DNA from: Desulfobacteraceae bacterium
Lineage (GTDB): Bacteria > Desulfobacterota > Desulfobacteria > Desulfobacterales > ETH-SRB1
Reading direction: 5' to 3'
DNA length: 39,702 nucleotides
Assembly: GCA_028571455.1 (NCBI GenBank)
Contig: JAPVVG010000237.1
Span: forward strand, 1 to 39,702
Positions 8,938 to 39,545 of the stretch are shown here, in pieces. A program made the translations under genes and the position numbers. Each line of letters begins with the position of its first letter. The stretch's first letter is position 1. The notes under the pieces are model-generated. The model saw only the letters and a program-made list of their open reading frames with translations, did not search any database and was not told the origin of the DNA.

Positions 8938-8970
8938 GATTTCCTCACAGATTGGAAAGCGATTGCCGTA

Positions 8971-9822: not shown

Positions 9823-9827
9823 TATTT

Positions 9828-15131: not shown

Positions 15132-15146
15132 TTTCCTTTTATGTCA

Positions 15147-16736
15147 TTACAATGCCAAAAACTGACCAAACGGGTTTTGCACTTGAGAGACGGCATCGGA
15201 TAATGGGATCAAAAAACCGGTAGATAGCAGGCTCTTTTCAAGCCAATTTTTTTGCGTATCAGGAAACCGCAGAAGCTGCCGGGGATATGTCCAGCGCACT
15301 GCCCTGTCGAGCTGGCTGCCGCTAACCGCCATGCCATAATGGCAAAACATCCGGTCTTCAAAGGTCTTGAGGGTCATTTTACTCCTAGGGGGAATCAGGG
15401 CGAGCACCAGGTAACGCAAGATGACGTCTGTTATCACGATACGTGCGCCTGGTCCTTTCCAGGGAGCAATCAAGCCTATTTTTTTTCCAAGTTTGACAAA
15501 AAGCTCCTGGCCTTGTTCATCAGCTTTTTTGTAGTTGTAGTTATTTGGAACGGTGATATCAGGATGCCGCAAAGCGCCATGAATAATTTCCTGCATCCGG
15601 ATTAAATTTTGTTTGGCGGTTTCCCGTAATGAAACATCATCCAGCATCGGCGGCGTGACAAGCCATGCAAAACCATTAGCACCCCCCTGTTGCCTGGTTT
15701 CATCAGTCATGGCCGTGCAGTAACGCACCGATTGGGCGCAGAGGCTGCGTAACACCTGGAACACACAACAGAGGGTGAGCATTTCGACCTTTTCCAAAGG
15801 ATCAATGGTGGCACGGCAAATATTAGCGAATTCATAGGCGAAAAGATAGGCCTCTTGCCAGCTTTCCACAGGACACCAGCCACATTTCGCCAGCTGCCGT
15901 TGATTGGCAATAAGATCCTGAGTTGTTGGATCTGTATCCTCAATCCATTTGCTCAATTTATCTATTTGGGATGTTTCTTGAAAAAATTTCTTTAAACCCT
16001 CTGCAATATCAGTCAATGATGCTTTGACATCGCCTTTTTGAAAGTCCCATTTTTTTTCAAAGGCGAGTAGCTCCGAGGTATCTAAAAAACGGATGAGATT
16101 ACAGAGTTGCAAATAAAGCAATTCCCCGCCACGGGCCATGAAGTCATGACTGGAAAAGGAGTAATATCCTCCTTTTATAGCCTCTTCCCAAGATGTATCA
16201 GGTTTTTTATTCCCTTTTATCCGTTTCCAGATGGTTTCCCCCGCGATTAATCCACGACTTACAGGTAAAAAAGTTTGAGTACACCAGGTCCGGTTTGCCG
16301 CTACTCCTACAAAACCACAAAGTAACTGCTCAAGCAAATCAAGCACTTGGTCCTTGGAAATTGTATAATCCGTTTCAGTTCGCGCCTTGAGGTTTTCCAG
16401 AGTATGCCTGAAACGTTCTTTGTGACACCCATGCCGCGTTTCAAGTTTGGAAGAACCGAGAAAGGAAAAAAGCTTCAAAATCAAGCGGGCGGGCGGTTCA
16501 TATTCTAACGGTGTGTTATCCGGCCAGTTTTCAATACTTACCTGATCTGGAAAACCAAATCCCCATTTTGCTTCAGGATTAGAAATATATTTCTGCGCCA
16601 AAAAAAGCAGCAAAAACTCGATAAGATATTCTGTCTCAGTCTGGTCCTTGTAAAAGCGGCGGCCAAAAATCTGAATCGCCGGATTTTCGTCTTCTCTTTC
16701 TTTGTGAGCAAGTTGAGGGAAGCGGATGACTGACAT
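15147..16736 (-). CDS. Uncharacterised 529-aa protein in the operon
   Basis: Long ORF, overlapping start/stop with its neighbour at 16736; no family recognised. Confidence 0.8.
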   Translation of the reverse strand: MSVIRFPQLAHKEREDENPAIQIFGRRFYKDQTETEYLIEFLLLFLAQKYISNPEAKWGFGFPDQVSIENWPDNTPLEYEPPARLILKLFSFLGSSKLETRHGCHKERFRHTLENLKARTETDYTISKDQVLDLLEQLLCGFVGVAANRTWCTQTFLPVSRGLIAGETIWKRIKGNKKPDTSWEEAIKGGYYSFSSHDFMARGGELLYLQLCNLIRFLDTSELLAFEKKWDFQKGDVKASLTDIAEGLKKFFQETSQIDKLSKWIEDTDPTTQDLIANQRQLAKCGWCPVESWQEAYLFAYEFANICRATIDPLEKVEMLTLCCVFQVLRSLCAQSVRYCTAMTDETRQQGGANGFAWLVTPPMLDDVSLRETAKQNLIRMQEIIHGALRHPDITVPNNYNYKKADEQGQELFVKLGKKIGLIAPWKGPGARIVITDVILRYLVLALIPPRSKMTLKTFEDRMFCHYGMAVSGSQLDRAVRWTYPRQLLRFPDTQKNWLEKSLLSTGFLIPLSDAVSQVQNPFGQFLAL

Positions 16737-19700: not shown

Positions 19701-21226
19701 TTGAGAGATGATGCATCAGGGAATACGGTAAAAATATTATCCGGCAAATAGCAATAATCAAAGTTCATTATTTTTGGTGTATCCCCTGCCATCATAATAT
19801 TTTCCGGCCGCAAATCGCGATGAATGACAAGCCGATCATGCAGTGCCACAAGACCCTGGGTGATACCTTGAACAATATTAGCCGCTTCAGATAGAGAAAA
19901 TTTCCCCTTTTGAGTCATAACATCCGCAAGTGTACCCTGCTCCGACCAGTCAGAAGCCTCAATGATTAGCCCTTCCTCATTGGGAACATATTCTACTTTG
20001 ACCAGATTTGGATGGCTACCTACCTGTTCAACAGCTTTGAGACTATTCAGATACTTAATCTTCTGTTCTTCACGTTCTGTCTGGGAAAGATTGGGATCAA
20101 CCGTGAAAACTCGTAATCGTTTCACGGTCTGCAATTCATGGTTAGCGGGTTTCACCAAAAGTTCAATTTTCTGAGCGGTCTGTGTCAGATTCTCCAGGAT
20201 ATCATAACCAAGGATATACAATGCCTTACCGCGAGGCACCGTTGTCTGTTCACGTAGTTTTTCCGCGATTTTCTGCCGATCATTGACAGAGAGAAGTGGT
20301 TTGTGGGAGCCAGAGCGGTAATTGAAAAATTGAACCAAAGCATCAATATCGCCAAAGGTGGGATTGTTTGGTGCCTTTTTCGGCAATGTAACATTATGGA
20401 CTACAGCATCAGGGTTTGTTAGCACTACTATGGATTCAACCCATATGTTGGGGAGATATGGGAAGGCTTTATCAATAAAGCTTCGCAACACCTGGCATTT
20501 GTATTTATTTGATTTGTGAGGGTCTTTTCGATATTTGCCATTGATGCGCCAGTTGTGAGGCAGGATTTCAACCTTGCCTGCCCAGTGCTTTACTTCTATG
20601 ATGGCGATGAGATCTCCGGCGATAGCAATGAGATCACATTCAAAATATTGATTGGTTGCCGGATCATAAAGGTCGTAATTGGGGATAAATTCGGCCTGGT
20701 TTTTGAGAGATTGTGTGATGGTTTCCAGGGCATGTCGCTCATGGGGGAATTTGCTTTTGATTGGTAAAGCCTGACTATCTTTTTCTATGTTAGAGCTAAG
20801 TGATTGGATAAGGAAATCTTGAGCTGCTTCACGATGGTTTTTTTCTTGCAGAAACGTATATACCTTTTCGTCCAGGTAAGCGTAGCTGACCAACTCAGAG
20901 AGGTCACGGGGTGAACCAACAGAAGATGCGTCACCAAGTTTCTCTTCCTTGCCTTCATTAGGCATTAATTTCCAAAAGCTGTTTGACCTGAGGTGAAAAA
21001 AAGGATTTAAGGGCCTGTTCCGATCTTCCTTCCTGGCAAATTTGTAAAAAAAATTCGAGAACAAATACCTGAAATCTGAATCAAAATAAAATTTATTTTT
21101 TACGTAAATCCCAGAAGATATTCCTTCTATTATCGCAAGAAGTGCCAAAACCTTATGTGGTTTATTGCCAGAGACATTGTGGGGTAGGATAGAAGAAATA
21201 ATTTCTTTGAAATCATCAAGATCCAT
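16736..21226 (-). CDS. 1496-aa multidomain protein: N-terminal PHK/DNA-sulfur-recognition-like domain, NERD nuclease, degenerate kinase, Ser/Thr kinase, P-loop NTPase
   Basis: N-terminus NKPHKVLALLAIIEGI...NPFFHLRSNSFWKL; NERD core CDLIAIAGDLIAIIEVKHWAG; kinase 1 VIHRDLRPENIMM...IMNFDYCY; kinase 2 VAIKLFHQE...LLHNDIKPDNILLTANGDPALIDFGTAS; Walker A VILTGHAGDGKSTIAL. Confidence 0.8.
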   Translation of the reverse strand: MDLDDFKEIISSILPHNVSGNKPHKVLALLAIIEGISSGIYVKNKFYFDSDFRYLFSNFFYKFARKEDRNRPLNPFFHLRSNSFWKLMPNEGKEEKLGDASSVGSPRDLSELVSYAYLDEKVYTFLQEKNHREAAQDFLIQSLSSNIEKDSQALPIKSKFPHERHALETITQSLKNQAEFIPNYDLYDPATNQYFECDLIAIAGDLIAIIEVKHWAGKVEILPHNWRINGKYRKDPHKSNKYKCQVLRSFIDKAFPYLPNIWVESIVVLTNPDAVVHNVTLPKKAPNNPTFGDIDALVQFFNYRSGSHKPLLSVNDRQKIAEKLREQTTVPRGKALYILGYDILENLTQTAQKIELLVKPANHELQTVKRLRVFTVDPNLSQTEREEQKIKYLNSLKAVEQVGSHPNLVKVEYVPNEEGLIIEASDWSEQGTLADVMTQKGKFSLSEAANIVQGITQGLVALHDRLVIHRDLRPENIMMAGDTPKIMNFDYCYLPDNIFTVFPDASSLKPSPYIAPELYIDKQFAEATDLFSVGILFYTLLCGTPPFKESLYLLKGIGGLTEDQLGKLKKLQTPAYIIEIIASLIQKDRNKRPQEAKEILTILQKLSPEKEKEPPKPEPNEVLQPGASYDVFKIEEFIGMGREAQVYRAQQIGDRTVAIKLFHQEVPRDRIVSEQNNLELVKSPFVLHSHGLHQWRDGRFFLVTNLIKGPSLRTLINKGERPDLTQFKQVTSCLLEALLAMHKDSARETVLLHNDIKPDNILLTANGDPALIDFGTASYPHIGPYMGTDLYVAPDLLRKIDFDFCESGDLFALGITLFEWLCGKRPYDSVPNLEEFPKTVRDFRHDKDIPDSLIDWLDQAIQPRRDDGFANIIAMQEVFNKAMWPSKEPIIVLEPKPAKAVPSHITRYGENNFVTYLNTLHNATASDENALAESQAQNRYFGDIHVGLNQTDYILKKLTDSEGTNVILTGHAGDGKSTIALELYKKIRNLQFNKPLDQPFTEHEIIPCNGFTIHIIKDMSEFGGKQRRKNILDSLDLHNTTERWFIISNSGTLLSTFEDIAKEKETPWPKLENQLLESLDKNDPEPLDIFGTCFTVINLAKTDNVDTGVTVLKRIIDHSAWQDCEICDLEKSCPVYRNVIALRQAKDTALRRIYWIYRRLNEYGSRLTMRQITGHLAYSLTGGLDCRTIRDQAAAAIPPDSMDTLFCNRFFGYKGVEFDEQAKRLTAVGHIEKLEMGSKPFPGLDRVLWNSEDAMLPTLPETMRPIADELCNRIKIGSPSRIQASRIRQALRRIYYIFGDFPDDMKKRFIPLFLDSQMLVEAEEWQNQRNGPDFQRKSGLLSPIFHVLQEEYTGLKLSESNETKELYITLRRRQEGYRQSVQILLAEIPFRNFSLEWERLNDTFKQTRYVLILVEKMSGYELRLELPFLDFVLMHDMGEVGQRLNPGYKNRLERFKAQLLEHPAHKVNQLKLLEMDRDGSLKTKTLMIQEQQLQVM

Positions 21227-21241
21227 AGCTGTTATCCCTAA

Positions 21242-22024
21242 TTAAATATCACACACTATACATGCAGTTGGACCATGGTTTTGAAAAATATCAACCAATT
21301 TTTTGCTTCTATTATTAGGTCTCATGGGTGATCTTTTGTTATAGCTTTCTTCAATTTCACCCCTGCGTTGAACTAATTCACCGAGGCTCTCTCCTTCGCT
21401 CCATGTAAATCTTTTTTCATTTTGGCCTATTTTTTCAAAAGACATGGCCTTAATGAAACTCTTCTTATGGTGTTTGTATAAGTTAAGCCACTCAATTTTT
21501 TGTTGAAAAAAACAGAAATAACAACCAGACCTGCTTCTCCATTTATAATATTCTGGAAATCCTAGACCGCTAGATTCCAATAAATATTCAATGTCCGAGT
21601 AAATAAGTCCATCTTCTACAAAAGGATAGAACGGTATGATATTATCTTTGCTTGAAATGTATCCATCACGGTCTTCATCATTTCTGATACCTATGTAGCT
21701 GTATACATAATCTGACCCTATATATTTCTCATAAGGTTTGATTTTAAGGACCTCTGTGCACCACCTTTGCTGCGGTGATGGCAGATATCCGCCCTTTAAG
21801 TTCAACCAATTCTCAAATGACCTTTCAGGGTGAATAACGGTAATTTCAATCCCCAAAATTGCCCTCATCCGATTCAAATATTCATACGTTTCAGGTAATT
21901 CATACCCCGTATCAAGAAAAACATATTCAAGTCCTGGTTTGTCCTTAAGATATACTGCCAGAGCTGCGCTGTCTTTACCGCCGGAAAGGGCCAGAATATG
22001 CCGCCGGTTATCACTCTTTCGCAT
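21242..22024 (-). CDS. PAPS-reductase / ATP-pyrophosphatase family protein, SspD/DndC-like
   Basis: PP-loop LALSGGKDSAALAVYL, EYVFLDTGYELPETYEYL, RWCTEVLKI, RSGCYFCFFQQK and C-terminal CIVC. Confidence 0.85.
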   Translation of the reverse strand: MRKSDNRRHILALSGGKDSAALAVYLKDKPGLEYVFLDTGYELPETYEYLNRMRAILGIEITVIHPERSFENWLNLKGGYLPSPQQRWCTEVLKIKPYEKYIGSDYVYSYIGIRNDEDRDGYISSKDNIIPFYPFVEDGLIYSDIEYLLESSGLGFPEYYKWRSRSGCYFCFFQQKIEWLNLYKHHKKSFIKAMSFEKIGQNEKRFTWSEGESLGELVQRRGEIEESYNKRSPMRPNNRSKKLVDIFQNHGPTACIVCDI

Positions 22025-22028
22025 AATA

Positions 22029-25000
22029 TCAATTCCTTATGCTGTCATCTTGTAGCAGCTTTTCGCCTAACAAAATAAAAAGCGCTTCAAGTTCTTCATG
22101 GGATAACTCTTTGTGAGAAACTCTCATGAATTTTTTCATTTTTTCAAGATTTGCTTTATCTATCCGAAACAATTTATTTGGCATAGAACCAGATGAGTTC
22201 ATCATAGATACATAACGAACAACTTTTCCTTTGGTTTTAACAGGGGATTTGAGTTCCGCCGTTACAATTGCCTCAAGCGCTTGAAAGCGATTGGCAAAAT
22301 CATGAATACTGGTTGAAAAAAGTTGCAAATCGTTATCGCGCCAGACGTCTACCGGCCGATGATTGACAATTGCTGCCAAAGACGTCAGCCAATCTTGCAT
22401 ATTGCTATTTGACCCAGCTAATGCGGCCACGAAAGGTTTTAGTTTAGGATCGGCGCACCGAAGAACTAATGGTTTTGCCCGTTTATTGAGATCAGTTTGT
22501 ACAGACTTTGGTTCTATATTGTACCCCTCGCCAAAAGTTTCTACCACAATAGTTTGGATGGACCGTAACAGGCGCGGCAGCGCCTCGGTAAGTTCAACCA
22601 GAGTAACACGTAATAATTTTTGGAATCGTGCTACCCTTTCCTCCTCTATGGGAGTCTTATCAGAAAAGCTATGGAGTCCTACAGCCTTTGGCAGATCAGT
22701 AAAGAGTAGCTGAATGGGGTCTTTAGCATTCAAAAGCGTTCTTCGAACATTTTGGGCCTCTTTGCTGATGATTCTTGTATGAAGAACATATTCCGGCAAT
22801 CCGCCGGCAAATTGCACAAGCGGGCCGACTACACTGACCATGGTAGCATTGCGGATCTTTTTGTTTCCATTAATTGGGCTTGTGTTCAACAAATCCCGAT
22901 AAATGCGGAAAACTTTCCCCTGAATCCCCATCGGTGTAAATTTTCTAACCGAAAAATATTCAGGTCGTTTCACCATCAGTTCCATATCTTCGGGGCCAAG
23001 AAACGGCACAAAAGCTCCTTCTTGGTATAGAGCGATTTCATCAGAGTGTACAGCCAAAACTAGACAGATCAATACAAAAATAGGGCCTTCTCTCATCCCA
23101 AATGGGGGATGTCGTAACCTTTCGACAAGGGATACCATTTGGACTTCTCTGTCAGTAGCTTTGCTGATGGATTTAATAAGCTCATTCCATACAGGAAAGA
23201 AATTCGTATTAGGTTCCGGAGCTACCAACTGCCAATAGTCTTTTTTTCCTTTTCTGTGAAGGCCTTCTGCCTTTAACATAGTCCGATATATTGCTACTTC
23301 TGGACCGGTACCCTGCATCCCTAAGTTCTCCTCGCCCTCATGGGCAAGCATTGCATCCATCAACTCTCTTCTAGCTCTTGCGGCTGCGGAAGATAGTTGA
23401 TTGCGATTGATCAACTCGTTTCTAATGACTGGACAGTCAGGAAATGCCTGATTGCACAGGGAAGATAACAAAGAAGAAAGGTCTCTGCCAGTTTCAACAG
23501 AACGTGCCTGATTATCTGCATACCAGGTAGTTTCTGTGTTTCCCGGAGAGAAAATATCAGATACAAATCGACGAAGGCTATCTTCTGCAACCTGGGCTCG
23601 AAAACTTGCCTCCTTTCGTGCAACACCATCATGGAGAAGTTCCGATGCCTCTTTCAGTACCGCCTTGGAAGCCGCAACATCCAATATCATTTCTCGAAGC
23701 TGTTCTTCACATTTGGCGTAGCCTATTACGATGGGACGCCCGTTTTTAGTATGAAATGGGAAGGTCTCCGATGGGGCCTCTTTGCCAAAGCAGTATAGGA
23801 TTAAACCATCTACGTCATCTGAAGAACATTCCGGAGTTATTTCTTGAAGTTCTGATAGAGAACACCACTTTCGTTCAAAGTGCCTTAAGGTCCCTGTTTC
23901 GTATGAATGCCTTGAAGCTGTGAGCGGGCTCAGTGAAAATGACTTCTCCAAAATGTCAGTGAGCGGCTGAACTGCAAGACTATCTTTCCGTTTACGGATC
24001 GCAGCAGGAATGTCAAAGTCAGTTCCTTCCCAAAGCCGATATTCATCAGCATAATCACGGTAAATGAGGATTCCTTTTTCGATAAGATCGCTCAGGGTTT
24101 TTTGAAGGTTTTTCTCTTTCAAACCGTCTGAAGAAAATGGCCTTAAAAACGCAAAAGGCAGTATTTTGGAGGAAGCCTTGAATCCCGAGGGGCCTGAAAA
24201 TAAATTAAGCAGCCCGGTTACCTTTAAAATAATTACATAGAAGGGGTCCAAATGCCTTGATCTTTCTATGAGATCATGAATCTCTAACCAGCGTTGAGAT
24301 TCAGGCCGATTCAAAACAACGCTTGTTACGGATGAAAGAAAATAATCATACAAATGTTCAGGACCAAAGGTTGACAAATCGCCAGCCTCTAAATCGATTG
24401 TTTGAGTTGAAAGAAAGGAAGGTAAGGCATTTGGTTCTCCGCTACACAGAAAGGAAAACAGTGTGCGATCATTTTGTGCAAAACGGACACAGAGTTCAGG
24501 TAAAAGTAAAACTACCAAAGGATGCAAGGGATAAAACCGCTCCAGGCTTTTAACGTCTAAGTTGAACATCTCAGGGAATTGGGAATGATTTACTTTAGCA
24601 TGAAAAGTTTTAGCCCAGTTGCTAACTGCTCTATTTATGAGGGAGTTTTCGTTCTTTCGGACAAGTGTTTTTCCGATAAACTGAATCATTTGGGCAGTAG
24701 GTTCCACAAAGGAAATATCTTCAAAACGCCCCTGCACTTTTCCCCATTCTTGAAACTGCCTGTTAGTTAGCCCTGATGCGTACTCCTCAAATGCCTGGTG
24801 AAGGCAAACCCAGAGATATATGTCATCAGTTTCTGCAAGAGCTTGCAGAATATAAAGATCACCTTTTGCAGGATAACGAGCCATGAATTCAAGATTTTTG
24901 CCGAATTCATCTATAAAAACTGCAACGGGGCTCCGATATAACCTTCCTGCTTCTTTATAAAGCTCTACAAGTAGAAGCGTTTCTATGAATTCCTCTCGGC

Positions 25001-25499
25001 ATATCTTGTTGACTTTGTGCAATAATTTTCCAAATGCTGTTTTATTGCTGCCATGCTTATGCTTGATCCTTATCATTGCTTGCTGCAAACCTTTAGATAA
25101 TGACCGATTAATTGATTCAAAGGAAGACGTAACCGGAACTCGGAAAAGACCTTTGGTTTTAGAGTTATAAACAGCTAAAGCATTTCGCAGTTTTTTCGCC
25201 AAGTTGTGGTCTTTTTCATCTAACATCTTTCGAGCAATTCGTGTGTCGTTTTCATCGCTCGGTCCACAGAGTGCAAGAAGAAAGTTGGCAAAAGATGATT
25301 TCCCCATTCCGTAGGGTCCGGTTAATGACCAGGCCGAAACCCGTTCACCGTTTAACGCAGACGTTAGCCGGCTTATTATTTCCAAACCCTTGCCAGTCAG
25401 ATAGTACTGCCGGAGGTTGGTATCATCCCCCATATCGCGTTCTATATTTACAGAACGGGCTACATTAGCATCAATTGATACATAATCCGATAGAATCAT
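22029..25499 (-). CDS. Large P-loop ATPase, SspC-like
   Basis: Walker A LTGPYGMGKSSF, Walker B VAVFIDEFGKNLEF; lies between the DUF4007 and PAPS-reductase-like genes. Start MILSDYVSIDANVARS at 25499 abuts the upstream stop codon. Confidence 0.75.
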   Translation of the reverse strand: MILSDYVSIDANVARSVNIERDMGDDTNLRQYYLTGKGLEIISRLTSALNGERVSAWSLTGPYGMGKSSFANFLLALCGPSDENDTRIARKMLDEKDHNLAKKLRNALAVYNSKTKGLFRVPVTSSFESINRSLSKGLQQAMIRIKHKHGSNKTAFGKLLHKVNKICREEFIETLLLVELYKEAGRLYRSPVAVFIDEFGKNLEFMARYPAKGDLYILQALAETDDIYLWVCLHQAFEEYASGLTNRQFQEWGKVQGRFEDISFVEPTAQMIQFIGKTLVRKNENSLINRAVSNWAKTFHAKVNHSQFPEMFNLDVKSLERFYPLHPLVVLLLPELCVRFAQNDRTLFSFLCSGEPNALPSFLSTQTIDLEAGDLSTFGPEHLYDYFLSSVTSVVLNRPESQRWLEIHDLIERSRHLDPFYVIILKVTGLLNLFSGPSGFKASSKILPFAFLRPFSSDGLKEKNLQKTLSDLIEKGILIYRDYADEYRLWEGTDFDIPAAIRKRKDSLAVQPLTDILEKSFSLSPLTASRHSYETGTLRHFERKWCSLSELQEITPECSSDDVDGLILYCFGKEAPSETFPFHTKNGRPIVIGYAKCEEQLREMILDVAASKAVLKEASELLHDGVARKEASFRAQVAEDSLRRFVSDIFSPGNTETTWYADNQARSVETGRDLSSLLSSLCNQAFPDCPVIRNELINRNQLSSAAARARRELMDAMLAHEGEENLGMQGTGPEVAIYRTMLKAEGLHRKGKKDYWQLVAPEPNTNFFPVWNELIKSISKATDREVQMVSLVERLRHPPFGMREGPIFVLICLVLAVHSDEIALYQEGAFVPFLGPEDMELMVKRPEYFSVRKFTPMGIQGKVFRIYRDLLNTSPINGNKKIRNATMVSVVGPLVQFAGGLPEYVLHTRIISKEAQNVRRTLLNAKDPIQLLFTDLPKAVGLHSFSDKTPIEEERVARFQKLLRVTLVELTEALPRLLRSIQTIVVETFGEGYNIEPKSVQTDLNKRAKPLVLRCADPKLKPFVAALAGSNSNMQDWLTSLAAIVNHRPVDVWRDNDLQLFSTSIHDFANRFQALEAIVTAELKSPVKTKGKVVRYVSMMNSSGSMPNKLFRIDKANLEKMKKFMRVSHKELSHEELEALFILLGEKLLQDDSIRN

Positions 25500-25500
25500 T

Positions 25501-26439
25501 TTATCGTTCCAATCGACCCTTCCCTTCATAATAGTGAGATAAAGCTTTCCGGTAGAGCAAGTCGGGGTCTTCCTTGAATGCTAATTGGCGATTTCCGAAA
25601 GATTCCACAAAATCGATCCCCTTGAAATTTATCACAGCCCTTTCCAAGCGTTGACCGACCTCAGTCTCAGAAAGCTTGAACACTACTCCAGGGCTGTTGA
25701 AATCATACATGATTCGGTTGAAAGAAAGTGTCCGAAGCGAAGACTGCATCTTTCTTGCATAATCCAAACACGCTGCTAAAAGAATCAGGTCAGGCAATGA
25801 GGGCTTGTCATTCACATTGAATCGATGTGCCTGTTTTTCGTCATTTGAAACAAGCAAGCCCAAATGTGTGAAAGGGCATTCTATCTCGGATGAGATCTGC
25901 CTGCTATGTGGAGAGTACATACGGATAAAACATGAGGCATCCTTTGCAATTGATGAAGATGAATAACGGTTCGAGCCCAAAAGTCGATCTTTACGGTCAA
26001 TAAGAATTTGGGTTAAATTCTTTAAAGTGTATGGAGTCATTAGCCCCAAATTTATGGCTAATGACCAAGCAATAGCGGAAATTGGTGGCATAAAAAGCTG
26101 CCAATGAAGGAGCCAAAGGCTCGCGGGATCTTCTAAAAAAGGATCCCATCCATCGTCGGCAAACAAAGCTTTGCCGAAACCAGTCACTTTCATTGGTCCA
26201 CTAAGCTTTGCTGACGATCCTTCCGCAGGTTCAATGACATGAAAAGCCATGCACCAGAATCGAATGGCTTTTACCATGTTTTTGCCTACGCCTAATCTTT
26301 CAATGGCATCCTCTTGGTCAAAGATTTTGGGATCTTCAAAAACACCATCAAAACCTTTCTTCAGCCATCCATATCGGGGGCAAAAGGTTTCATGGCGTGC
26401 AAAAAAGCCTTCTTTTAACCATTCTTCAAAATTATTCAT
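25501..26439 (-). CDS. DUF4007 family protein, SspB-like
   Basis: FFARHETFCPRYGWLKKGFDGV...AIERLGVGKNMVKAIRFWCMAF...GFGKALFADDGWDPFLEDPASLWLLHWQL is the DUF4007 pattern. Confidence 0.85.
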   Translation of the reverse strand: MNNFEEWLKEGFFARHETFCPRYGWLKKGFDGVFEDPKIFDQEDAIERLGVGKNMVKAIRFWCMAFHVIEPAEGSSAKLSGPMKVTGFGKALFADDGWDPFLEDPASLWLLHWQLFMPPISAIAWSLAINLGLMTPYTLKNLTQILIDRKDRLLGSNRYSSSSIAKDASCFIRMYSPHSRQISSEIECPFTHLGLLVSNDEKQAHRFNVNDKPSLPDLILLAACLDYARKMQSSLRTLSFNRIMYDFNSPGVVFKLSETEVGQRLERAVINFKGIDFVESFGNRQLAFKEDPDLLYRKALSHYYEGKGRLER

Positions 26440-29494: not shown

Positions 29495-29945
29495 TTTTTA
29501 TTACGATATTTGGTATTCTTCAAAATTAACAAGTCCGAGTCACGGGGTCACCCATTTTTTACAACATAATGCCTCTTTGTCAAGAATAAAGACCCGACCG
29601 CCTATGTCGCCTCTCAGAGATTTCGCCCAAGGCTTTCAAAAAGGCAACCCGATCATCCAACAAATATATCTCGCTGGGGTGACTTCCGGGACGTTATGTT
29701 GCCAGTTTAGTTATGTTGTGAGTTTTGGATATACTTCCCTTTAACTATCAGAGATTTATTTTCTTTGAATCTAATTCTTATACTTATTATCTTCTTTAAT
29801 AAAAAGGGGTTACAAAAACTCGCAACATAACATCTTGTAATCATTTGACATTATATTTTCTTTGTGCTATATATATTATAATTAGAGAATAGGAGAAAAT
29901 GGCATATGATTTACTTCTGCTTTATAAGCTCTGCTTAGTTTTGCT

Positions 29946-29999: not shown

Positions 30000-30035
30000 T
30001 GAGCCGACCTCTGGTATAAAGGATTGGGACGTTTG

Positions 30036-30295
30036 GGGGACGCCCTTTATATTTCCATATTTACAGTTTTAGGCTTAAGGATCAATGAGATTGTAGCCCC
30101 TTTGTTGCTTTGTTGTACTATTGTCTCTCCTGGCTTTACCGACTGACTCACCCCGGCCAATGAGAGATTCAAGCGCCTTGCTATTTGAACCATACCAATA
30201 CCAAGGTCTCTTACCGCCCAATAGCACAACAGACTTTTTGCCTTAACGCGCAAAAGAATCATAATTTCAAATCTGTAAATGTAAAGGGCGTCCCC
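30036..30295 (-). mobile_element. 260-bp inverted-repeat-bounded element carrying a RAYT C-terminal fragment
   Basis: 14-bp perfect terminal inverted repeats GGGGACGCCCTTTA (30036-30049) / TAAAGGGCGTCCCC (30282-30295). Interior on minus encodes ...LLRVKAKSLLCYWAVRDLGIGMVQIARRLNLSLAGVSQSVKPGE..., a RAYT-type C-terminus. Confidence 0.65.
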
Positions 30296-30499
30296 GAAGC
30301 ACCCGAAGCACAGATCTGATGGCTCAACATATTTAAACAGTTTTTGTAAATCTTCTTGTATAAGTAAAAATGAACGAATGTAATGCTGTGGATTTTTAAC
30401 ATACATCGGGTGCAATAAATATTTCCAATTTCCTGAATTTGAATATGATCCATCGGTAAATCTTCTTATTGTCCTTTTTAATGGTCTATCTATAGGCAT
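30296..30499 (-). pseudogene. 5' part of a disrupted cassette ORF
   Basis: MPIDRPLKRTIRRFTDGSYSNSGNWKYLLHPMYVKNPQHYIRSFLLIQEDLQKLFKYVEPSDLCF... then runs into the inverted-repeat element; the listed ORF 30047-30499 is a chimera. Confidence 0.6.
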
Positions 30500-30523
30500 A
30501 TTATCTCCTGATTATTCAAATCA

Positions 30524-30581
30524 TTCTAACCATTTTCACTGGCGCCGGTTTTTTGGTGTCCAGTGCAAAAAAAGGTTCGGT
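30524..30581 (-). other. Integron attC site (58 bp) of cassette 3
   Basis: Minus strand: R'' ACCGAAC ... TTTTGCACTGG/CCAGTGAAAA arms with one extrahelical G ... R' GTTAGAA. R'' is the exact complement of the R' that opens cassette 3 (GTTCGGT). Confidence 0.8.
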
Positions 30582-30584
30582 AAT

Positions 30585-31928
30585 TCATTTGCTTAATTTC
30601 ATGTTTAAAGTCCAAGAAGCATATGGATAAAAATCTGGTAAGTTGCTAACAATTTGTCCATTTTTGAAATAATGGTGCGCGATTGTTGGAAACAACTCTG
30701 TAGGGACCGGAAATATAGCATTAGGATTATGAAACATTGATACCCCATCTGCCCAAGTCTCATCGCACTGTTCATCTACTACATACTTAAACATTTTTGG
30801 TACAGCTGCGTTTGGATCATGATCATGGCAGGTTCCAACTCTTACCATCATAACATTATCATCCTTAAAACCTGATTGTCTTCCAATTCTGTTGAATTTT
30901 GAAATTGTTCCACTGGCGGAAAATACTACAGCACTAATATTTTCTGCGTTTTCTTGAAAAAAGAAGCCAGATGGTATTTCTTTGTTACCTACTTTGTGGC
31001 TTTTAATAGGTATTGGATTAATGACAAGTTTGTTTTCTTCGTTATAAAAAAAATCATGCTTTACACCATAGAGATAATTAATAAGTGCTGTCGAACTCCA
31101 CAGCATTGATGCATCATCATGGAAATCAGCTATGGCCAAAATTAGCGGATTTCCCTTCACGTGAGGCAGTTCCCAATATTTTTTTTGCAATTTAGTGAAT
31201 AATGGACTACCAAATCGTATTGGCATTGAATCCTCATGTTCCTTTAATACCTCATCCGGTGACTTAATTTTGGGGTATTTTCTAAAATATCGGGGAGGAT
31301 TATTTTCTTTTCTTCCAACAATCACAGCTTCCATTGCTACAGTTTTACCGTATTTCTGTATTAAGAAATCTGGGGCATTGTGTTCACGGTTAACAAACAG
31401 TTCTTCTTCCGAAAGGTATGCGAATAAAAATAATTCCCATAAACGTGAATCAAAACCTGTTGTCTGAAATTGTTCTACAAAGTTACCATCAACATCAACA
31501 AAGTTTGGCATCATGTTTCTGATAAGTTCTCTTGCCGGGGTAAATGCAGCCTCACGCATTAAATGGGAAGAAAAGATGTGCAGCTTTTCAGATGCAACAA
31601 TGGGGGTAAACAAGTCTAATCCTTTTGATGCATCTCCTTGAGGGAATATTTTTTTATTTTGGCCAGTATGCCATTTAATAGCATTAATTAGCCATTGCTG
31701 AGCTTCATCTTTATTTGGAAAAGAGCATTCAAGATCAAAAGCTCTAAAACGCCCTCCTTCATCCCGCCCTAAAACTACGGCCACATAATCTAAATCAATA
31801 GTATCAAGAAGAAGGACACCAATTACAGATTCATCATCATTTGAATACCATCCCAACTCCTTGCTAACATAGCCAGCCGCCGGACTCCTGGAATAACCTG
31901 CGATTGCATTAAATCTTTTCTCATCCAT
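30585..31928 (-). CDS. Uncharacterised protein, cassette 3 (possible PD-(D/E)XK-like)
   Basis: Likely start MDEKRFNAIAGYSRSPAAGYVSKELGWYS at 31928; the longer listed ORF start lies inside attC. APDFLIQKYGKTVAMEAVIVG resembles a D...ExxV nuclease core. Confidence 0.75.
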   Translation of the reverse strand: MDEKRFNAIAGYSRSPAAGYVSKELGWYSNDDESVIGVLLLDTIDLDYVAVVLGRDEGGRFRAFDLECSFPNKDEAQQWLINAIKWHTGQNKKIFPQGDASKGLDLFTPIVASEKLHIFSSHLMREAAFTPARELIRNMMPNFVDVDGNFVEQFQTTGFDSRLWELFLFAYLSEEELFVNREHNAPDFLIQKYGKTVAMEAVIVGRKENNPPRYFRKYPKIKSPDEVLKEHEDSMPIRFGSPLFTKLQKKYWELPHVKGNPLILAIADFHDDASMLWSSTALINYLYGVKHDFFYNEENKLVINPIPIKSHKVGNKEIPSGFFFQENAENISAVVFSASGTISKFNRIGRQSGFKDDNVMMVRVGTCHDHDPNAAVPKMFKYVVDEQCDETWADGVSMFHNPNAIFPVPTELFPTIAHHYFKNGQIVSNLPDFYPYASWTLNMKLSK

Positions 31929-31969
31929 TTCTTTGACGATGATTTTTTCTATCAAAACCGATCCTTTGC

Positions 31970-32107
31970 ACCGAACGGCAAGGATAACCTGATGAAAAAG
32001 CAAACAAAATATGGTTAAAAAGCGAAGAAAAATCAATAAACAGCAAAATTTGTAGAAACCAAAAAACGGCCAGGCTTTTTCAGTCAGAGTTCATCCTTTT
32101 GTTAGCT
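31970..32107 (-). other. Integron attC site (138 bp) of cassette 2
   Basis: Minus: R'' AGCTAAC; arms AAGGATgAACtCTGAcTGAAAAAGC / GCTTTTTCATCAGGTTATCCTT with extrahelical bases; R' GTTCGGT. R'' exactly complements the R' opening cassette 2 (GTTAGCT). Confidence 0.8.
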
Positions 32108-32125
32108 TTTTCGATTACTTGCATG

Positions 32126-33223
32126 TTATTCAGCTGACACCTCAAGGTCGCTCTCTTTATAACCAAAAAGTCTCATAAGTTCGCGACTCCGTTTGACAAT
32201 TGAATTTGAATTCAGCTTTGTTTCAACAAAGAAATTTGAACTTGCAATCTGCATAGGTTGTCTTAACTTGTTTGGCTCTTGGCTAAAATATGACATTCGA
32301 GAACCCCGAAGAGAGAGGCACCGGGAAAATTCAGCACTGTGCCGCCGATATATCTCTTCCGAGACGATAACAAGGAGTTCCTTCCACGTGCGTGGATGAT
32401 GAGTATTGCCAAGTAACTGGAAACTTCTGACCCGCTTATTTATAAAACTGCCTTCGGGGTAAAGTATAGGCTTTAGCGCAGACACAGGACTGATAGCATG
32501 CCTTTTCGGAGGAGACGAAACTTCTGGTTTTGTGCTTGGCGAGGTCTGAATATTTATTATGAATTTCTCGACATCTTCTATTTCCGGCCTGAAACCTGAT
32601 AGTTTTTCGGTTGTCTCAATAAGAAGCTCAACAAAGAGGTCATCAGGATCATTCAAGATTTTATACCATGCTTTTGGCAAAGCATCCCGCAAAATATTCC
32701 TTTTTTGTCGCCCCCTGTAAAGGTGTTCAGCGTTTTTGAGCGTATCGCCGGATGCGCTATTCTCCCTTGATAGCAAATCAATCAATTTCTTCGCTATTGC
32801 ATTTGGATCTTGCTGTAAGAAGTCTGCGGTAAAAAACCGTCTCTGTTCCCAACTGCCTTCATTCAATGGGAGATAAAACCACCATGTAATTCCATTTGTT
32901 AATATCGCCTGCTTCACACCCTCTCTGAACGAGTAATTAAGGAGTTGCTCCTGATGTGCCTCCAAATTTTCATTTGGCCGTTTAACCTCGATAAAGACCT
33001 TATTTATGCCATTTATCCGCAACGAAAAATCGACCCGCTTTGATTCAATAGTATATTCAGGTTTTACCTCATTAACATCGAAAGGATTCCATCCCAGCAT
33101 AGATAATAACCGCAAAATAACACCCGACTTAATTGAGGCCTCATCTGACATAAGGATTGATTTATCATTGCGAATCTCATTAATTGCAGATACAAGCCTT
33201 TCTTTCATCGTGACCTCATTCAT
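32126..33223 (-). CDS. Stand-alone type I restriction HsdR-N-like nuclease domain protein, cassette 2
   Basis: IKSGVILRLLSMLGWNPFDVNEVKPEYTIESKRVDFSLRINGINKVFIEVKRPNENLEAHQEQLLNYSFREGVKQAILTNGITWWFYLP; no helicase domain follows. Confidence 0.85.
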   Translation of the reverse strand: MNEVTMKERLVSAINEIRNDKSILMSDEASIKSGVILRLLSMLGWNPFDVNEVKPEYTIESKRVDFSLRINGINKVFIEVKRPNENLEAHQEQLLNYSFREGVKQAILTNGITWWFYLPLNEGSWEQRRFFTADFLQQDPNAIAKKLIDLLSRENSASGDTLKNAEHLYRGRQKRNILRDALPKAWYKILNDPDDLFVELLIETTEKLSGFRPEIEDVEKFIINIQTSPSTKPEVSSPPKRHAISPVSALKPILYPEGSFINKRVRSFQLLGNTHHPRTWKELLVIVSEEIYRRHSAEFSRCLSLRGSRMSYFSQEPNKLRQPMQIASSNFFVETKLNSNSIVKRSRELMRLFGYKESDLEVSAE

Positions 33224-33232
33224 TTATTGGAA

Positions 33233-33292
33233 AGCTAACCCGGCATGAGGCGCGGCGGCTTTTTGCCGTCGCCCTCAATGCCGTTGTTATAC
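33233..33292 (-). other. Integron attC site (60 bp, classic 59-be type) of cassette 1
   Basis: Minus: GTATAAC-AAC-GGCATtGAGG-GCGaCGGC-AAAAA-GCCGcCGC-GCCTCATGCC-GG-GTTAGCT; near-perfect hairpin with an extrahelical T. Confidence 0.92.
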
Positions 33293-33297
33293 TTTTA

Positions 33298-33660
33298 TTA
33301 ATACCTTTTCCCAACAAGATTTCTGCTTACACGATACTTGTAGACAGCCGTTTTTGCCTGGCCATAACTAAAACCCATCCCCTCCAAATGCCTTATGCAT
33401 TCTTTCGGGGGTGTGTTTCGTGCGTTGAAATCATCTAATATTCGATCATACTCATCTTGTGTTGTCCGATGCGTTGCTTTTAGATGGTTGCCGTGGTGAA
33501 TATAAATGTACGATCCGTTTTTTGCCTGTTCGTAGGATGCACCAGCATCAATAAGGATTCTCTCACATTCAGTTTGTGATAGTCCTCTTGCACGAGCATT
33601 ATTTTGATCGAGAATACGAGAATATTCATCTTGACCAAAATATTGGATGCCATCATTCAT
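33298..33660 (-). CDS. Small uncharacterised protein with two internal repeats, cassette 1
   Basis: QDEYSRILDQNNARARGLSQTECERILIDAGASYEQAKNGSYIYIHHGNHL duplicates as QDEYDRILDDFNARNTPPKECIRHLEGMGFSYGQAKTAVYKYRVSRNL. Confidence 0.75.
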   Translation of the reverse strand: MNDGIQYFGQDEYSRILDQNNARARGLSQTECERILIDAGASYEQAKNGSYIYIHHGNHLKATHRTTQDEYDRILDDFNARNTPPKECIRHLEGMGFSYGQAKTAVYKYRVSRNLVGKRY

Positions 33661-33706
33661 TTTCTCAATCCTTAAATTATGAATTTAATATACGGCACCT
33701 CAAATA

Positions 33707-33735
33707 GTATAACGCAGAGCTAAAATAAAGTGGAC
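33707..33735 (-). other. Truncated attC right end (R' GTTATAC)
   Basis: Minus: TTTATTTTAGCTCTGCGTTATAC directly precedes cassette 1; the other arm is replaced by RAYT-like sequence (ACTTGGACGC...). Confidence 0.6.
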
Positions 33736-33739
33736 TTGG

Positions 33740-34221
33740 ACGCTCATTAGTTTATAAGTTACTGTTAAGGTTTTAGCGAGCAATTGTGGCGTATAACCAA
33801 TTGCTCTTAAGCGTTTAACCGCTGAACTGACTGCGGGTTGTGAAATCTTCAGAAACAGAGCAAACTGCGAGCCGCAACCGTCTTTTTATATTTCCCGACG
33901 GCCAATACCTGCTCAGGTTTTAAGTCCAACAATTCTGCAACTCGTCCAAGTACCTTTTCAAAGTTAAACCCATTTGATTTAAGATGATATTTGCACTCAA
34001 AGTTTTTCAAGTCGATTTAAAAAATTATCCCTATCGACACCATCTGTAAATATCCTTTTACGTTCTATACCTCTGGCAATAATATGATGAAGCGCACCCA
34101 GCGCCTGTCCGCCACCTGCCACGCATGCCGGCGTTTGGGATGTATGCAGTGATAGGCGATGGCAGGCGGGTCGCGAGCTCAGGCGAGGCGGACGGGCATC
34201 TATTCTGGCTTGATGTGGCAT
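33740..34221 (-). pseudogene. Degraded REP-associated tyrosine transposase (RAYT)
   Basis: MPHQARIDARPP...GALHHIIARGIERKRIFTDGVDRDNFLNRLEKL then frame-shifted FEKVLGRVAELLDLKPEQVLAVGKYK...; ends AVKRLRAIGYTPQLLAKTLT. Confidence 0.75.
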
Positions 34222-34365
34222 GTGACTTCATAACCCCAAACAAATGAAAAAAGAAACGCATAAATAACGTCCCCCTTTAAGGGCCTTTCCATATTTACAA
34301 TAGTTTAGGGTAAAAACTGTAAATGTAAAGGGCGTCCCCAAGATGTCCCAGGCCTGGCAGCATTT

Positions 34366-34583: not shown

Positions 34584-36359
34584 CTATCTCCCCAGTTTTT
34601 GCTCTCGTTGAGAAGTCACAACTCTCTTGTAATCTTCAGCACCACGTGCAAATGTCTTACGCCAACATTCAACCAACTTGGGGTCTTCACTAGTTGGTCG
34701 GGGCGTTTGTAACGGAATTCGTACGCGTGAAGGGATTGTAACCGCTTCACCGATAACAAGTGCTTCACCTGTTCGCAGTGATGGAAGCAAGTCTATGAGG
34801 CTGATCAAGTTGTCTGGGGCTGACGATTTCACAATCGATTGATCGGTCGAGTTGGTTAGCCTCAGTGCGATGAAGGTTCCAACCTGCGCTAATATCGTTT
34901 CGGCAATCTCAGACGGCCTTTGAGAAATAATCATTGCCCCAACGCCAAATTTACGGCCTTCTTTGAAAATACTCTCGACTGCATCCCTTGCGTAGTTATT
35001 GGCTCCAGATTTATTGAGATAAGAGTGAGCCTCCTCGAACGCGATGAAAAGCGGTCTCTGCCTCCCAGTGTATGGTTCATTCCTTCCCCAAAACATACTA
35101 TCAAAAACGAAACGAGTGATGAGGCCAACAGTTATGTCAAGAACCCCAAAAGGTACGCCTGCCAGATCGAGAATCGTAAGTCTCTCCTCACCACCAATCC
35201 AATCATTCAGAAGATCGTGCAAATCCTTTGGTGATGTGGCATCAGAGTAGTCACCAGGATGAAACAGAAAATCATACGCTGAATCCCTGAGTCGACTTAT
35301 TAGTCGCTTTTCGTAAACGTAGAACTCTTGATAGAGTTTTGACTTATAGGGGGCAGCAGCCCCGACTGCATAGGGTTTAAAACGGGGTGGCTCAAGAGTG
35401 TTATAATCGCCATTGCTTTCGATGAGTGCTTTGTCCTTGGTCTGCTTCTCAGCGGTCGCTTCGCTGAACGTTGCATTCAGCCACCAATAGATGTGATACC
35501 AGAGTTCTCTGACATTGAATGGTATAGGCGAATCAGCAGAAACTCGATCAGAATCAACAACTCCCGATTTTAATGAGCCTACATTCGCCTTTTTTCTTTC
35601 AACCACTAGCTCGCGCAGTTTTCTGTACTCAGGGCGTTGGTCATCCTTGGGTACGGCACCCACCAGAAAAAAAGCGAGTTCATCAAATGTCATCAGCCAG
35701 AAGGGGATATGCAGTGGATGCGTTGCATCTTTGATTCTGAATACGCGGGACCGCGGGAATGCCGTGGCATACTCCCCATGGGGATCGACTAGGATGACTC
35801 TTGATCCCGGATAATCGTCCAAGATCGCCTTTAAAACACTCACTGTGGTGTTGGACTTTCCACTTCCTGTCGACCCGAAAATTGCGCAGTGGCGCAAAAC
35901 AAGCTTGTGAATATCGGCACTAACGCTCAAGTTTTCGGATGAAGAGTGCTTTCCGATCTCTATAGAACCGGCGTCTTTCCTCGCATATATGTCGAACAAA
36001 TCACGTTCGGTCACAAGATGAACTTCATCGTTTATTGTCGGATATGTGCCGACGCCTTTCTGAAAGTCCTCATCTCCAATTTTTTCTCCAACAAGTTGCA
36101 CCGACAAGAATCTCGATCCTTGATCGTATGGACGACTTTCGTCCGTGGCTGCACTCGGTGTATTGCTAACCGCTGAGACGATTCCGTAGATGCTGATATT
36201 ACCCACTGGAAACTTCACAAAGGTTCCGATTTGGCCAATCTTATAGAGTCGGCCATTGATTATCGGCGCGGCTGAGGGAATAGTGCTCGATATCTCGACT
36301 TCAACTGTGCTTGAGTCAACGCGAATGACTTTACCCAAGTATGTGATGTCGCTGATCAT
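34584..36359 (-). CDS. herA: HerA-type helicase/translocase ATPase
   Basis: AIFGSTGSGKSNTTVSVLKAIL, SRVILVDPHGEYA, LFIAFEEAHSYL, EGRKFGVGAMIISQRPSEI. Confidence 0.9.
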   Translation of the reverse strand: MISDITYLGKVIRVDSSTVEVEISSTIPSAAPIINGRLYKIGQIGTFVKFPVGNISIYGIVSAVSNTPSAATDESRPYDQGSRFLSVQLVGEKIGDEDFQKGVGTYPTINDEVHLVTERDLFDIYARKDAGSIEIGKHSSSENLSVSADIHKLVLRHCAIFGSTGSGKSNTTVSVLKAILDDYPGSRVILVDPHGEYATAFPRSRVFRIKDATHPLHIPFWLMTFDELAFFLVGAVPKDDQRPEYRKLRELVVERKKANVGSLKSGVVDSDRVSADSPIPFNVRELWYHIYWWLNATFSEATAEKQTKDKALIESNGDYNTLEPPRFKPYAVGAAAPYKSKLYQEFYVYEKRLISRLRDSAYDFLFHPGDYSDATSPKDLHDLLNDWIGGEERLTILDLAGVPFGVLDITVGLITRFVFDSMFWGRNEPYTGRQRPLFIAFEEAHSYLNKSGANNYARDAVESIFKEGRKFGVGAMIISQRPSEIAETILAQVGTFIALRLTNSTDQSIVKSSAPDNLISLIDLLPSLRTGEALVIGEAVTIPSRVRIPLQTPRPTSEDPKLVECWRKTFARGAEDYKRVVTSQREQKLGR

Positions 36360-37564
36360 TTGGCCCCCAAGTCTTGGCTATTCTGTTTTCCTGAACTTGC
36401 GACGAGGAATGCAACCAGCGCGTTGAAATCGCCCAACGTTAATTGCGACTTATCATCGCTCCAAAATGTTGTGGTGTTTTCGTTCGGCTTTGTCGCCTCT
36501 TTGTTGAAATGCCACTCGCCCAACTCGCCATTGATGATGGCTTTTGTTGGCCCGAATGCATGAAGATTCAGATATGCCGAACAGGATTTATGGAGGCTTT
36601 CTAAATCGGCGTCATTATAGATAAATGCGATGACGAACAAACGGTTGTTCTGGCGCATACAATTGAAAATAATCTCATTAATGTGTTGGTCGGAAAAGGA
36701 ATAGCCACTGATAGCGAATAGTAGTTCCCCGCCGAGAAGATAGGACCGCATCCTGTCAAAGTAGGCGATGAAAGGTTGCTTTCGAGAGGAGTCGTATTTG
36801 TCTTTGGATGGATATATGACGAGCTCATTCTTAATATCTGAAACCTTTCCGATGTTGCCAATCCTGATGATGCGATAGGATTTCGTTGTTTCGGAGAACC
36901 GCCAGAACCAGTTCAAGGAGCCGTGAATCTTCCAAAGGCGAATCCAATTCTTCGTGAGGTCCCCTGCTTTGACGAGATGGTCTACGCTCTCCTGCCAGAA
37001 GAAGGGCTCAAACGAGCCAACGAATCCATCGAAGTAGGGTATCTCACTGGCTTCAAGCGACTTCTCGATAACAAGATCGTAGTTGGTTGTGAAGACTTCC
37101 TTGGCGTAATCTCGATTGAGCAGGTTGTACCAGGCGAAGAACCGTTTTGTTGTGGCAAGCGGGGCGCTCGCCTCCTTCTCTGTGATGATTTTATAGATAG
37201 CTCTGCAAATCTCTCCATCAATGGTACTTGCATCCTTACCGCAAACACCGAGATATTTTCTGGTCTCGCTCTCGTTGGTAAGTTCACGAATTCGTCTTAG
37301 TTGATTGAGTATGTCCTCGATGTTGACAGCGCGCCCGTTTATCAGCGTGGCCAGATCGTCCTTAACGATCCGTAATGTCTTCGCCGAGCTCTCGTTTAGG
37401 GCTGTATCGACGCTGCGGGTCAGCGTTGTAATATCTGGAATGCCAAGAGCACAGGACGTACCGGCACCAAAGAAGAAGCCGATGTTCTTGGAGTAGGACA
37501 AATGATTCTTCAGCTCTCTTATTTCTCGAAGTACATCAAATTTCGTCATCGTGCCGCCTCTCAT
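36356..37564 (-). CDS. SIR2-like NADase domain protein (SIR2-HerA system)
   Basis: GFFFGAGTSCALGIPDI, EVFTTNYDLVIEKSLE, RLWKIHGSLNWFWR, LLFAISGYSFSDQHINEII; overlaps herA by 4 bp. Confidence 0.88.
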   Translation of the reverse strand: MRGGTMTKFDVLREIRELKNHLSYSKNIGFFFGAGTSCALGIPDITTLTRSVDTALNESSAKTLRIVKDDLATLINGRAVNIEDILNQLRRIRELTNESETRKYLGVCGKDASTIDGEICRAIYKIITEKEASAPLATTKRFFAWYNLLNRDYAKEVFTTNYDLVIEKSLEASEIPYFDGFVGSFEPFFWQESVDHLVKAGDLTKNWIRLWKIHGSLNWFWRFSETTKSYRIIRIGNIGKVSDIKNELVIYPSKDKYDSSRKQPFIAYFDRMRSYLLGGELLFAISGYSFSDQHINEIIFNCMRQNNRLFVIAFIYNDADLESLHKSCSAYLNLHAFGPTKAIINGELGEWHFNKEATKPNENTTTFWSDDKSQLTLGDFNALVAFLVASSGKQNSQDLGAK

Positions 37565-38496: not shown

Positions 38497-38868
38497 TTAT
38501 GATATCTCTTTAATCATCTTGTTTATGATCTGCGCTAATTCGGCAATGTTATATTTGCAGACGTCGTATATTACCTCTGCGTCCGCCTCAAAGTAATGAT
38601 GGCTGATGATATCCCTCATCCCTTTGGCTTTTTTCCAATCGACCTGAGGATATCGCGATAAAAGCGTCTTATTTGTCGCTTTGTCTAGATTTTTTAATGC
38701 CTCGCCAATTGCGATCAGTAACATACAAATGCTGTCAAGTTTCTCCATGCCTGCTGGTGAATCTGTGAAATCATTAACAGATTTAACCGGCTTAAAACGC
38801 TCTAAGATCGTTTGGCTTGCCCGATAAATCTGAGACAATATTTCTAAAACAAGCTCTTTGTCATACAT
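38497..38868 (-). CDS. hepT: HepT-like HEPN toxin (DUF86)
   Basis: KGMRDIISHHYFEADAEVIYDVC carries the Rx4-6H(Y) HEPN motif; overlaps the MntA-like gene. Confidence 0.85.
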   Translation of the reverse strand: MYDKELVLEILSQIYRASQTILERFKPVKSVNDFTDSPAGMEKLDSICMLLIAIGEALKNLDKATNKTLLSRYPQVDWKKAKGMRDIISHHYFEADAEVIYDVCKYNIAELAQIINKMIKEIS

Positions 38869-39208
38869 AGACCGCCTCTTTGTCTATTCTGCCTTTGAGA
38901 AAAGCGTTCATTTTTTCCCGATATCTTACAATATCTACAGTTCTGTGAAACTTTTCCTCTAAATCCTGCTTAATTCCTATAAGGTAAAACAAATTCGGTT
39001 TCCCAAGCTCCACAACAACGTCGATATCGCTTTGCTCTTTCATATTATCTCTGGCTGCCGAGCCAAAGATACCTATTCTTATTATTTCGTATCTGTCCTT
39101 ATTCATCTCCTTGAACCGGCGCAAGCTCATGATAATCTCATCCCTTTTCATTACCACTTCCCCCAATGGTTGATAAACTCGTAAAAAGTCAAATTCGTCG
39201 TCCGCCAA
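38861..39208 (-). CDS. mntA: MntA-like minimal nucleotidyltransferase antitoxin
   Basis: RIGIFGSAARDNMKEQSDIDVVVELGKPNLFYLIGIKQDLEEKFHRTVDIV: GSxxR..SDID nucleotidyltransferase motif. Confidence 0.88.
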   Translation of the reverse strand: MADDEFDFLRVYQPLGEVVMKRDEIIMSLRRFKEMNKDRYEIIRIGIFGSAARDNMKEQSDIDVVVELGKPNLFYLIGIKQDLEEKFHRTVDIVRYREKMNAFLKGRIDKEAVYV

Positions 39209-39232
39209 AGGGCTCTGGCGGATCGACCGCAG

Positions 39233-39275
39233 GGAGAAATCTTATCTTTTCAATAGGTTGCAGTAAGATTTCTCC
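39233..39275. repeat. Inverted repeat with perfect 12-bp arms (ggagaaatctta / taagatttctcc)
   Basis: Arms 39233-39244 and 39264-39275; likely dispersed palindromic repeat upstream of the TA pair. Confidence 0.7.
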
Positions 39276-39545
39276 TATTGTCGAAACAAGGATTTCTCGT
39301 TTCACTCGAAATGACAGGCCAGAGAGACTTTTTACGAGTTCATCAATGGTTACTTCGATTATCTTAATCAATGTTTTGCTAACGAGTTATTAATATTGAA
39401 AACCAAAAATACTGAAAGCCTGTTCATTATATGAAAATGCTTGATAAAGTCCTTTATGTGATTCGGAAAGGTATTATATCTTATTCCGCAGAAAATGCCA
39501 CCTAAAAAATATGGGGGGTTTTATTCTGCACGATGTCCCCCTTTA

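Follow-up and report, generated by a model that had tools for sequence, protein, structure and literature searches.

Between 30524 and 33735 of the window, that is, the whole 39,702-nt stretch that was analyzed (contig C237 of a Desulfobacteraceae bacterium), consecutive genes are separated by hairpins in the midst of phage-defense genes. This locus raises the question of whether these genes are the cassettes of an integron and, if so, how they came to stand here with no integrase beside them. By our estimate, with a probability of roughly 0.94, the locus is an integrase-less cassette array (CALIN) with defense cargo, which was captured by an integron integrase and whose ends were removed by RAYT and MITE elements.

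Organization of the Cassette Array

Three attC sites, all on the minus strand, lie between consecutive open reading frames: (i) attC1 (33233–33292; 60 bp), with R'' GTATAAC and R' GTTAGCT; (ii) attC2 (31970–32107; 138 bp, with a long terminal loop), with R'' AGCTAAC and R' GTTCGGT; and (iii) attC3 (30524–30581; 58 bp), with R'' ACCGAAC and R' GTTAGAA. Coordinates, strand, cores, and lengths are exactly those proposed in a first-pass annotation made from the letters of the DNA. The hairpins with extrahelical bases that it described are also seen, as R'' pairs with R' in the fold of all three sites and some bases of the L'' arm stay unpaired. In attC1 (fold energy −31.9 kcal/mol) this arm reads CGGCAT-T-GAGGGC with an unpaired T, and in attC3 it leaves a G and an A unpaired. 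The sites are spaced at 1.1–1.4 kb and begin 5 bp (attC1), 18 bp (attC2), and 3 bp (attC3) after the stop codon of the preceding gene, with one gene per cassette.

Measured from G|TT crossover to G|TT crossover on the minus strand, cassette 1 (33239–33712; 474 bp) contains one ORF and attC1, cassette 2 (31976–33238; 1263 bp) an ORF for an HSDR_N-type nuclease and attC2, and cassette 3 (30530–31975; 1446 bp) the PD-T7-1 gene and attC3. It had been claimed that each cassette opens with the complement of the R'' of its own attC, and this is borne out in every case: GTTATAC (33707–33713) answers to GTATAAC, GTTAGCT (33233–33239) to AGCTAAC, and GTTCGGT (31970–31976) to ACCGAAC.

Support for the attC Sites

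In the chain test, the R' of one site must complement the R'' of the next. The window holds a single three-site chain linked in this manner, and none arises in 120 dinucleotide-shuffled strands; at a looser threshold, the shuffled strands give a random expectation of 0.025 R'/R'' links per 39.7 kb strand. In a stem scan that tolerates bulges, attC1 (33.0) and attC2 (30.0) score highest in the window and exceed all shuffle maxima (18–26), and the score of attC3 (18.0), taken alone, is inside this noise. attC3 is secured by its linkage in the chain, by its position 3 bp past a stop codon, and by attC sites that are equally placed in relatives of its gene. A gapless stem scan was dropped for the bulge-tolerant one, as it misses attC1 and attC3 because of their unpaired bases.

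The covariance models were small and home-made (8 and 14 sites). The first (R1), based on eight attC sites outside this locus, has attC1 as its sole match in the window (19.5 bits, E = 0.0059) and does not recover attC2 or attC3, probably because of the loop of the 138-nt site and an AT-rich, differently spaced 3' arm. The second (R2; 14 sites) recovers neither of the two in full. Both attC2 and attC3 rest on linkage. A covariance model that finds no attC here, which the first-pass annotation had named as an outcome against its reading, was thus not what was obtained, as attC1 is found. An Rfam scan of the whole window gave no match.

The 5' arm has a common register, R''(7) + 2 + 6 + unpaired + 6 + unpaired, in nearly all of the 15 attC sites inspected; at the second of its unpaired positions, attC1 and attC2 are off by one base. 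This near-gapless register spans sites of the window, of the remainder of the genome, of Alteromonas, Vibrio, and Cloacimonadota, and of other members of the phylum. Four sites with arms off the gapless register (L033, L009a, L009b, and L095u) were excluded from model training. Across 14 sites from outside the window, the template pairs 75.2% of cells vs. 61.5% in shuffles, and the covariation score is 0.381 vs. 0.151, figures that partly reflect the selection of sites that fit the template. By the IntegronFinder definition, a CALIN has at least two attC sites. Here three sites are clustered on one strand in a linked chain, and the paired R''/R' and L''/L' arms with unpaired L'' bases are seen in the folds and in the 5' arm register.

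A Cassette Boundary Common to Two Families

What we regard as the best proof, independent of structure, is a boundary of cassette 2 in a genome of the same phylum and another family (G189). The end of its contig C235 matches the opening 179 bp of cassette 2 at 98.9% identity (177/179). This likeness breaks off precisely at the predicted G|TT crossover (GTTAGCT), beyond which the next 30 bases agree at 5 of 30, as would be expected by chance. The match sits at the contig end and covers the 5' part of the cassette alone, with the downstream boundary outside the contig. The upstream neighbor in G189 differs from that in the window, neither attC nor intI is found within 8.3 kb ahead of the cassette, and the remainder of the contig, short repeats excepted, is not present in the genome of the window. 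The upstream boundary of cassette 2 thus lies at the G|TT of its R' core, the mark of a gene cassette. Cassette capture at G|TT predicts this break, which no other reading of the hairpins does. Relatives of cassette 2 at two further loci (L132 and L150) are within attC cassettes. A gene order fixed elsewhere without attC, the other outcome named in advance as telling against an array, was not encountered; neighboring cassettes are not conserved together, with cassette 1 present in 1 of 396 genomes and cassette 2 beside another upstream neighbor in G189.

The ORF of cassette 2 (32126–33223, minus strand) encodes a 365-aa nuclease of the HSDR_N type, the C-terminal domain of which weakly resembles SeqA. 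The HSDR_N domain scores 42.3 bits against a cut-off of 25.1. For the C-terminal domain, SeqA (PDB 3sk7) matches the family profile with an E-value of 0.0076, and Pfam sees a SeqA-like C-terminus, under its cut-off, in three of eight family members; this likeness may serve as a lead only. A fuller proposal would make cassette 2 an undescribed integron-borne defense enzyme, an HSDR_N-type nuclease with a SeqA-like reader of adenine-methylated DNA, which passes from family to family in an attC cassette and is inserted at non-attI sites. Taken as a whole, this proposal is unlikely.

Cargo of the Array

PD-T7-1, encoded in cassette 3 (30585–31931, minus strand; 448 aa), was identified by PADLOC with a full-length match (E = 3.9e–192, 636.9 bits, residues 2–445 of 448). 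P187, D188, and E201 are invariant in the 25 PD-T7-1 sequences compared and, in the predicted model (AlphaFold, pLDDT 91), are located on neighboring strands of a helix-strand-strand-strand-helix core. No significant structural match to the model was found in the PDB, and the nuclease fold therefore rests on the literature, where a review lists PD-T7-1 as the anti-phage system of Vassallo et al. (2022) and as a PD-(D/E)XK nuclease (PMC10952713). The protein of the window has the full-length family match and the conserved predicted nuclease motif of this known system, but its gene is here the cargo of an integron cassette, the attC of which begins 3 bp past the stop codon.

The nearest relatives of this protein are from unrelated phyla, and an attC is located 3' of PD-T7-1 relatives in Planctomycetota, Cloacimonadota, Alteromonas, and Vibrio. 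In a Planctomycetota MAG (L033), the attC directly follows the stop codon of a relative with 69% identity, and the opener (GTTATGC) matches the R'' (GCATAAC). The attC is placed in the same manner at two other loci (L035 and L036), the latter with a matching opener and R'' (GTTAGGC/GCCTAAC), while the relative in Vibrio (L093) lies in an array with an attC on either side. For most other relatives examined no attC was found, and the family thus extends beyond integrons.

The ORF of cassette 1 (33298–33660, minus strand) encodes a 120-aa protein with two similar repeats of ~45 residues, which has no match in Pfam, NCBIfam, or PADLOC. It is present in 1 of 396 genomes, that of the window, with no homologue in plasmids, and its single-sequence structure model is poor. 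Two of the three cassettes encode predicted DNA-cutting enzymes, one of them a known anti-phage protein. From these sequences we infer that the cargo (PD-T7-1, the HSDR_N-type nuclease, and a small protein without a family match) is mostly phage defense, and the genes of the array may well be expressed and defend against phage.

Limits of the Array

The upstream limit of the array is a degenerate RAYT-type (REP-associated) transposase remnant (33738–34340, minus strand), copies of which occur across the genus with 79–96% identity and end at ~33738. A unique stretch of 24 nt (33714–33737, minus strand) separates it from the opener of cassette 1. This stretch has no second copy in the genome at ≤3 mismatches and no hairpin partner was seen; it is a remnant of one of the following: an attI, the 3' half of a lost attC, or a secondary insertion site.

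On the other side of the array, a truncated cassette 4 (30298–30529, minus strand) opens with GTTAGAA and has a GGAG and an ATG at 30499, but is interrupted by a repeat element after ~67 codons. Its own attC is gone, its R'' partner TTCTAAC (GTTAGAA on the plus strand) is absent throughout the window, and no plasmid homologue of the cassette was found. The interrupting repeat is a RAYT-derived, MITE-like element (30033–30300, minus strand) with GGGGACGCCCTTTACATTTACAG-type terminal inverted repeats, which forms the downstream limit of the array. It is multi-copy in this genome and in several genomes of the genus, with at most 92% identity over its length. Genus relatives share nothing but repeats with the window, so that no empty site can be read from them. 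Two other repeats (39170–39346 and 29682–29876) likewise have many copies across the genus.

Integrase and attC Sites Elsewhere in the Genome

The first-pass annotation had noted the lack of an integrase, and the integron integrase profile (TIGR02249) indeed has no match on the 39.7 kb of C237, which also lacks a recognisable attI. An intact IntI is, however, encoded on contig C130 of the same genome (2.93 Mb, 267 contigs, 97.3% complete). This IntI has an intact frame of 338 aa and scores 441.6 bits against a cut-off of 265. The cassette that it faces carries a TIR-domain gene and is followed by an AriA/AriB-like pair, and openers and attC match in the first (GTTCGAC and R'' GTCGAAC) and the second cassette (GTTGGGC and R'' GCCCAAC); C130 ends 1.3 kb past intI. 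A complete integron, with intI and attI beside the array, is thus seen on C130 and not on C237.

Covariance-model attC matches are found on at least seven other contigs of the genome (C158, C41, C97, C192, C71, C109, and C254), among which C192 has a Shedu-like gene beside attC-like sites and C109 a SIR2 gene directly ahead of an attC, and in all seven genus genomes examined. The integrase needed to move the cassettes of the window therefore exists in the same cell, and because of this intact IntI and the many other attC sites, the cassettes are not necessarily stranded. Judging from sequence, the C130 IntI may act on the sites of the window, and mobilization of the cassettes in trans is likely.

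Two further integrases of this genome, C191:423–1361 and C219:613–1548 (L010 and L011), score ~375 bits, above the IntI cut-off; they are longer (~440 aa) and there is no convincing attC on their contigs. In addition, near-identical 61-bp attC-like sites are located on three contigs (L167, 3679–3739; L166, 869–929; and L170, 4233–4293) and differ at the R' end, which is what a single lineage-typical attC placed beside different neighbors would give.

Origin of the Array

In the proposed mechanism, each cassette is one gene with an attC hairpin, the folded bottom strand of which would be recognized by the integrase and cut at G|TT. An integron integrase would have captured the cassettes singly and in succession, acting either from a since lost intI beside a former attI or, as the C130 IntI, in trans at a secondary site, and RAYT and MITE elements would later have removed both ends of the array. 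Both origins are described for CALINs in the literature, as degraded integrons (PMC9024848) and as attG integration (cited in PMC12444791), and both readings are thus variants within the best explanation. That an attI and an intI formerly stood at the 33.7 kb side, and were lost as the RAYT element arrived and decayed, has slightly better than even odds. The RAYT homology stops 24 nt short of the opener of cassette 1, which would leave the 24 nt as the stump of an attI or attC, the opposite end is interrupted by the MITE inside cassette 4, and the degradation of integrons is the view of CALINs taken in the literature (PMC9024848); however, the stump is unlike the attI region of C130 or any other site of the genome, and C237 carries no fragment of intI. 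A tentative possibility is that the cassettes were never beside an intI and were inserted in trans by the genome's own IntI at a GTT other than attI (attG-type). An intact IntI, attC sites scattered over many contigs, the lack of attC and intI ahead of cassette 2 in G189, and the description of attG insertion (cited in PMC12444791) agree with this, though no empty site was found; because the upstream flank is a repeat, the insertion target is unreadable from relatives.

The array could also be part of one large chromosomal integron that was split by assembly, as the genome is in 267 contigs, many with attC, and the one intI contig ends shortly past the gene. This is quite improbable, as the array is within a 39.7 kb contig and has non-cassette flanks of ~30 and 6 kb, because of which it is at least interrupted here. 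It is scarcely credible that the hairpins are chance structures or terminators between ordinary genes. The score of attC3 alone and the failure of the small covariance model to find attC2 and attC3 would fit with chance, but the chain does not arise in shuffled strands and the homology in another family breaks at the predicted crossover.

The Surrounding Defense Island and Related Systems

The sspB, sspC, and sspD phosphorothioation genes are located at 21242–26439 with strong PADLOC matches. Next to them, a cluster at 4666–21226 contains SspC/SspB-like, DndH/SspH-like, and SspG-like genes (the SspF/G/H-like part at 9.8–21.2 kb), including one whose 1496-aa product combines two kinase domains with an SspF-like part, and looks like the effector module of a phosphorothioate defense system. 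On the other side of the array, a HerA helicase and SIR2 gene pair (34584–37564) is of a known anti-phage type. Because SspBCD, the SspF/G/H-like genes, the kinase, and HerA-SIR2 surround the array, the window is a defense island. The description of the locus as a CALIN-like array inside a defense island consequently stands, with three attC sites, no intI on the contig, and these flanks.

Like known CALINs, the array has three same-strand attC sites at 1.1–1.4 kb spacing and no intI on its contig, but it is short, has lost both ends to RAYT and MITE elements, and lies within a multi-system defense island. Integrons as libraries of phage-defense genes are the subject of recent reports (Darracq, 2025; Kieffer, 2025; Getz, 2025; cited in PMC12444791). 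Cassettes with defense genes (PD-T7-1 and the nuclease) are likewise present here, and other attC stretches of the same genome hold or adjoin TIR, AriA/AriB-like, and Shedu-like genes; in contrast, the locus belongs neither to Vibrio nor to a mobile resistance integron, and its fragmented genome has many small arrays. The array adds a further well-founded case to a recently described phenomenon and is no new kind of system. Its interest lies in the inter-family boundary, by which phage-defense-type genes are seen to move in integron cassettes beyond Vibrio and beyond resistance integrons, and in PD-T7-1, which is the cargo of attC cassettes in several phyla. The array also links defense islands to integrons, as arrays of this type can supply genes to islands that owe the rest of their content to other mobile elements. 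Elsewhere in the window, adjacent small ORFs at 38497–39208 resemble, by eye, an MntA-like nucleotidyltransferase and a HEPN-type partner in a toxin-antitoxin arrangement.
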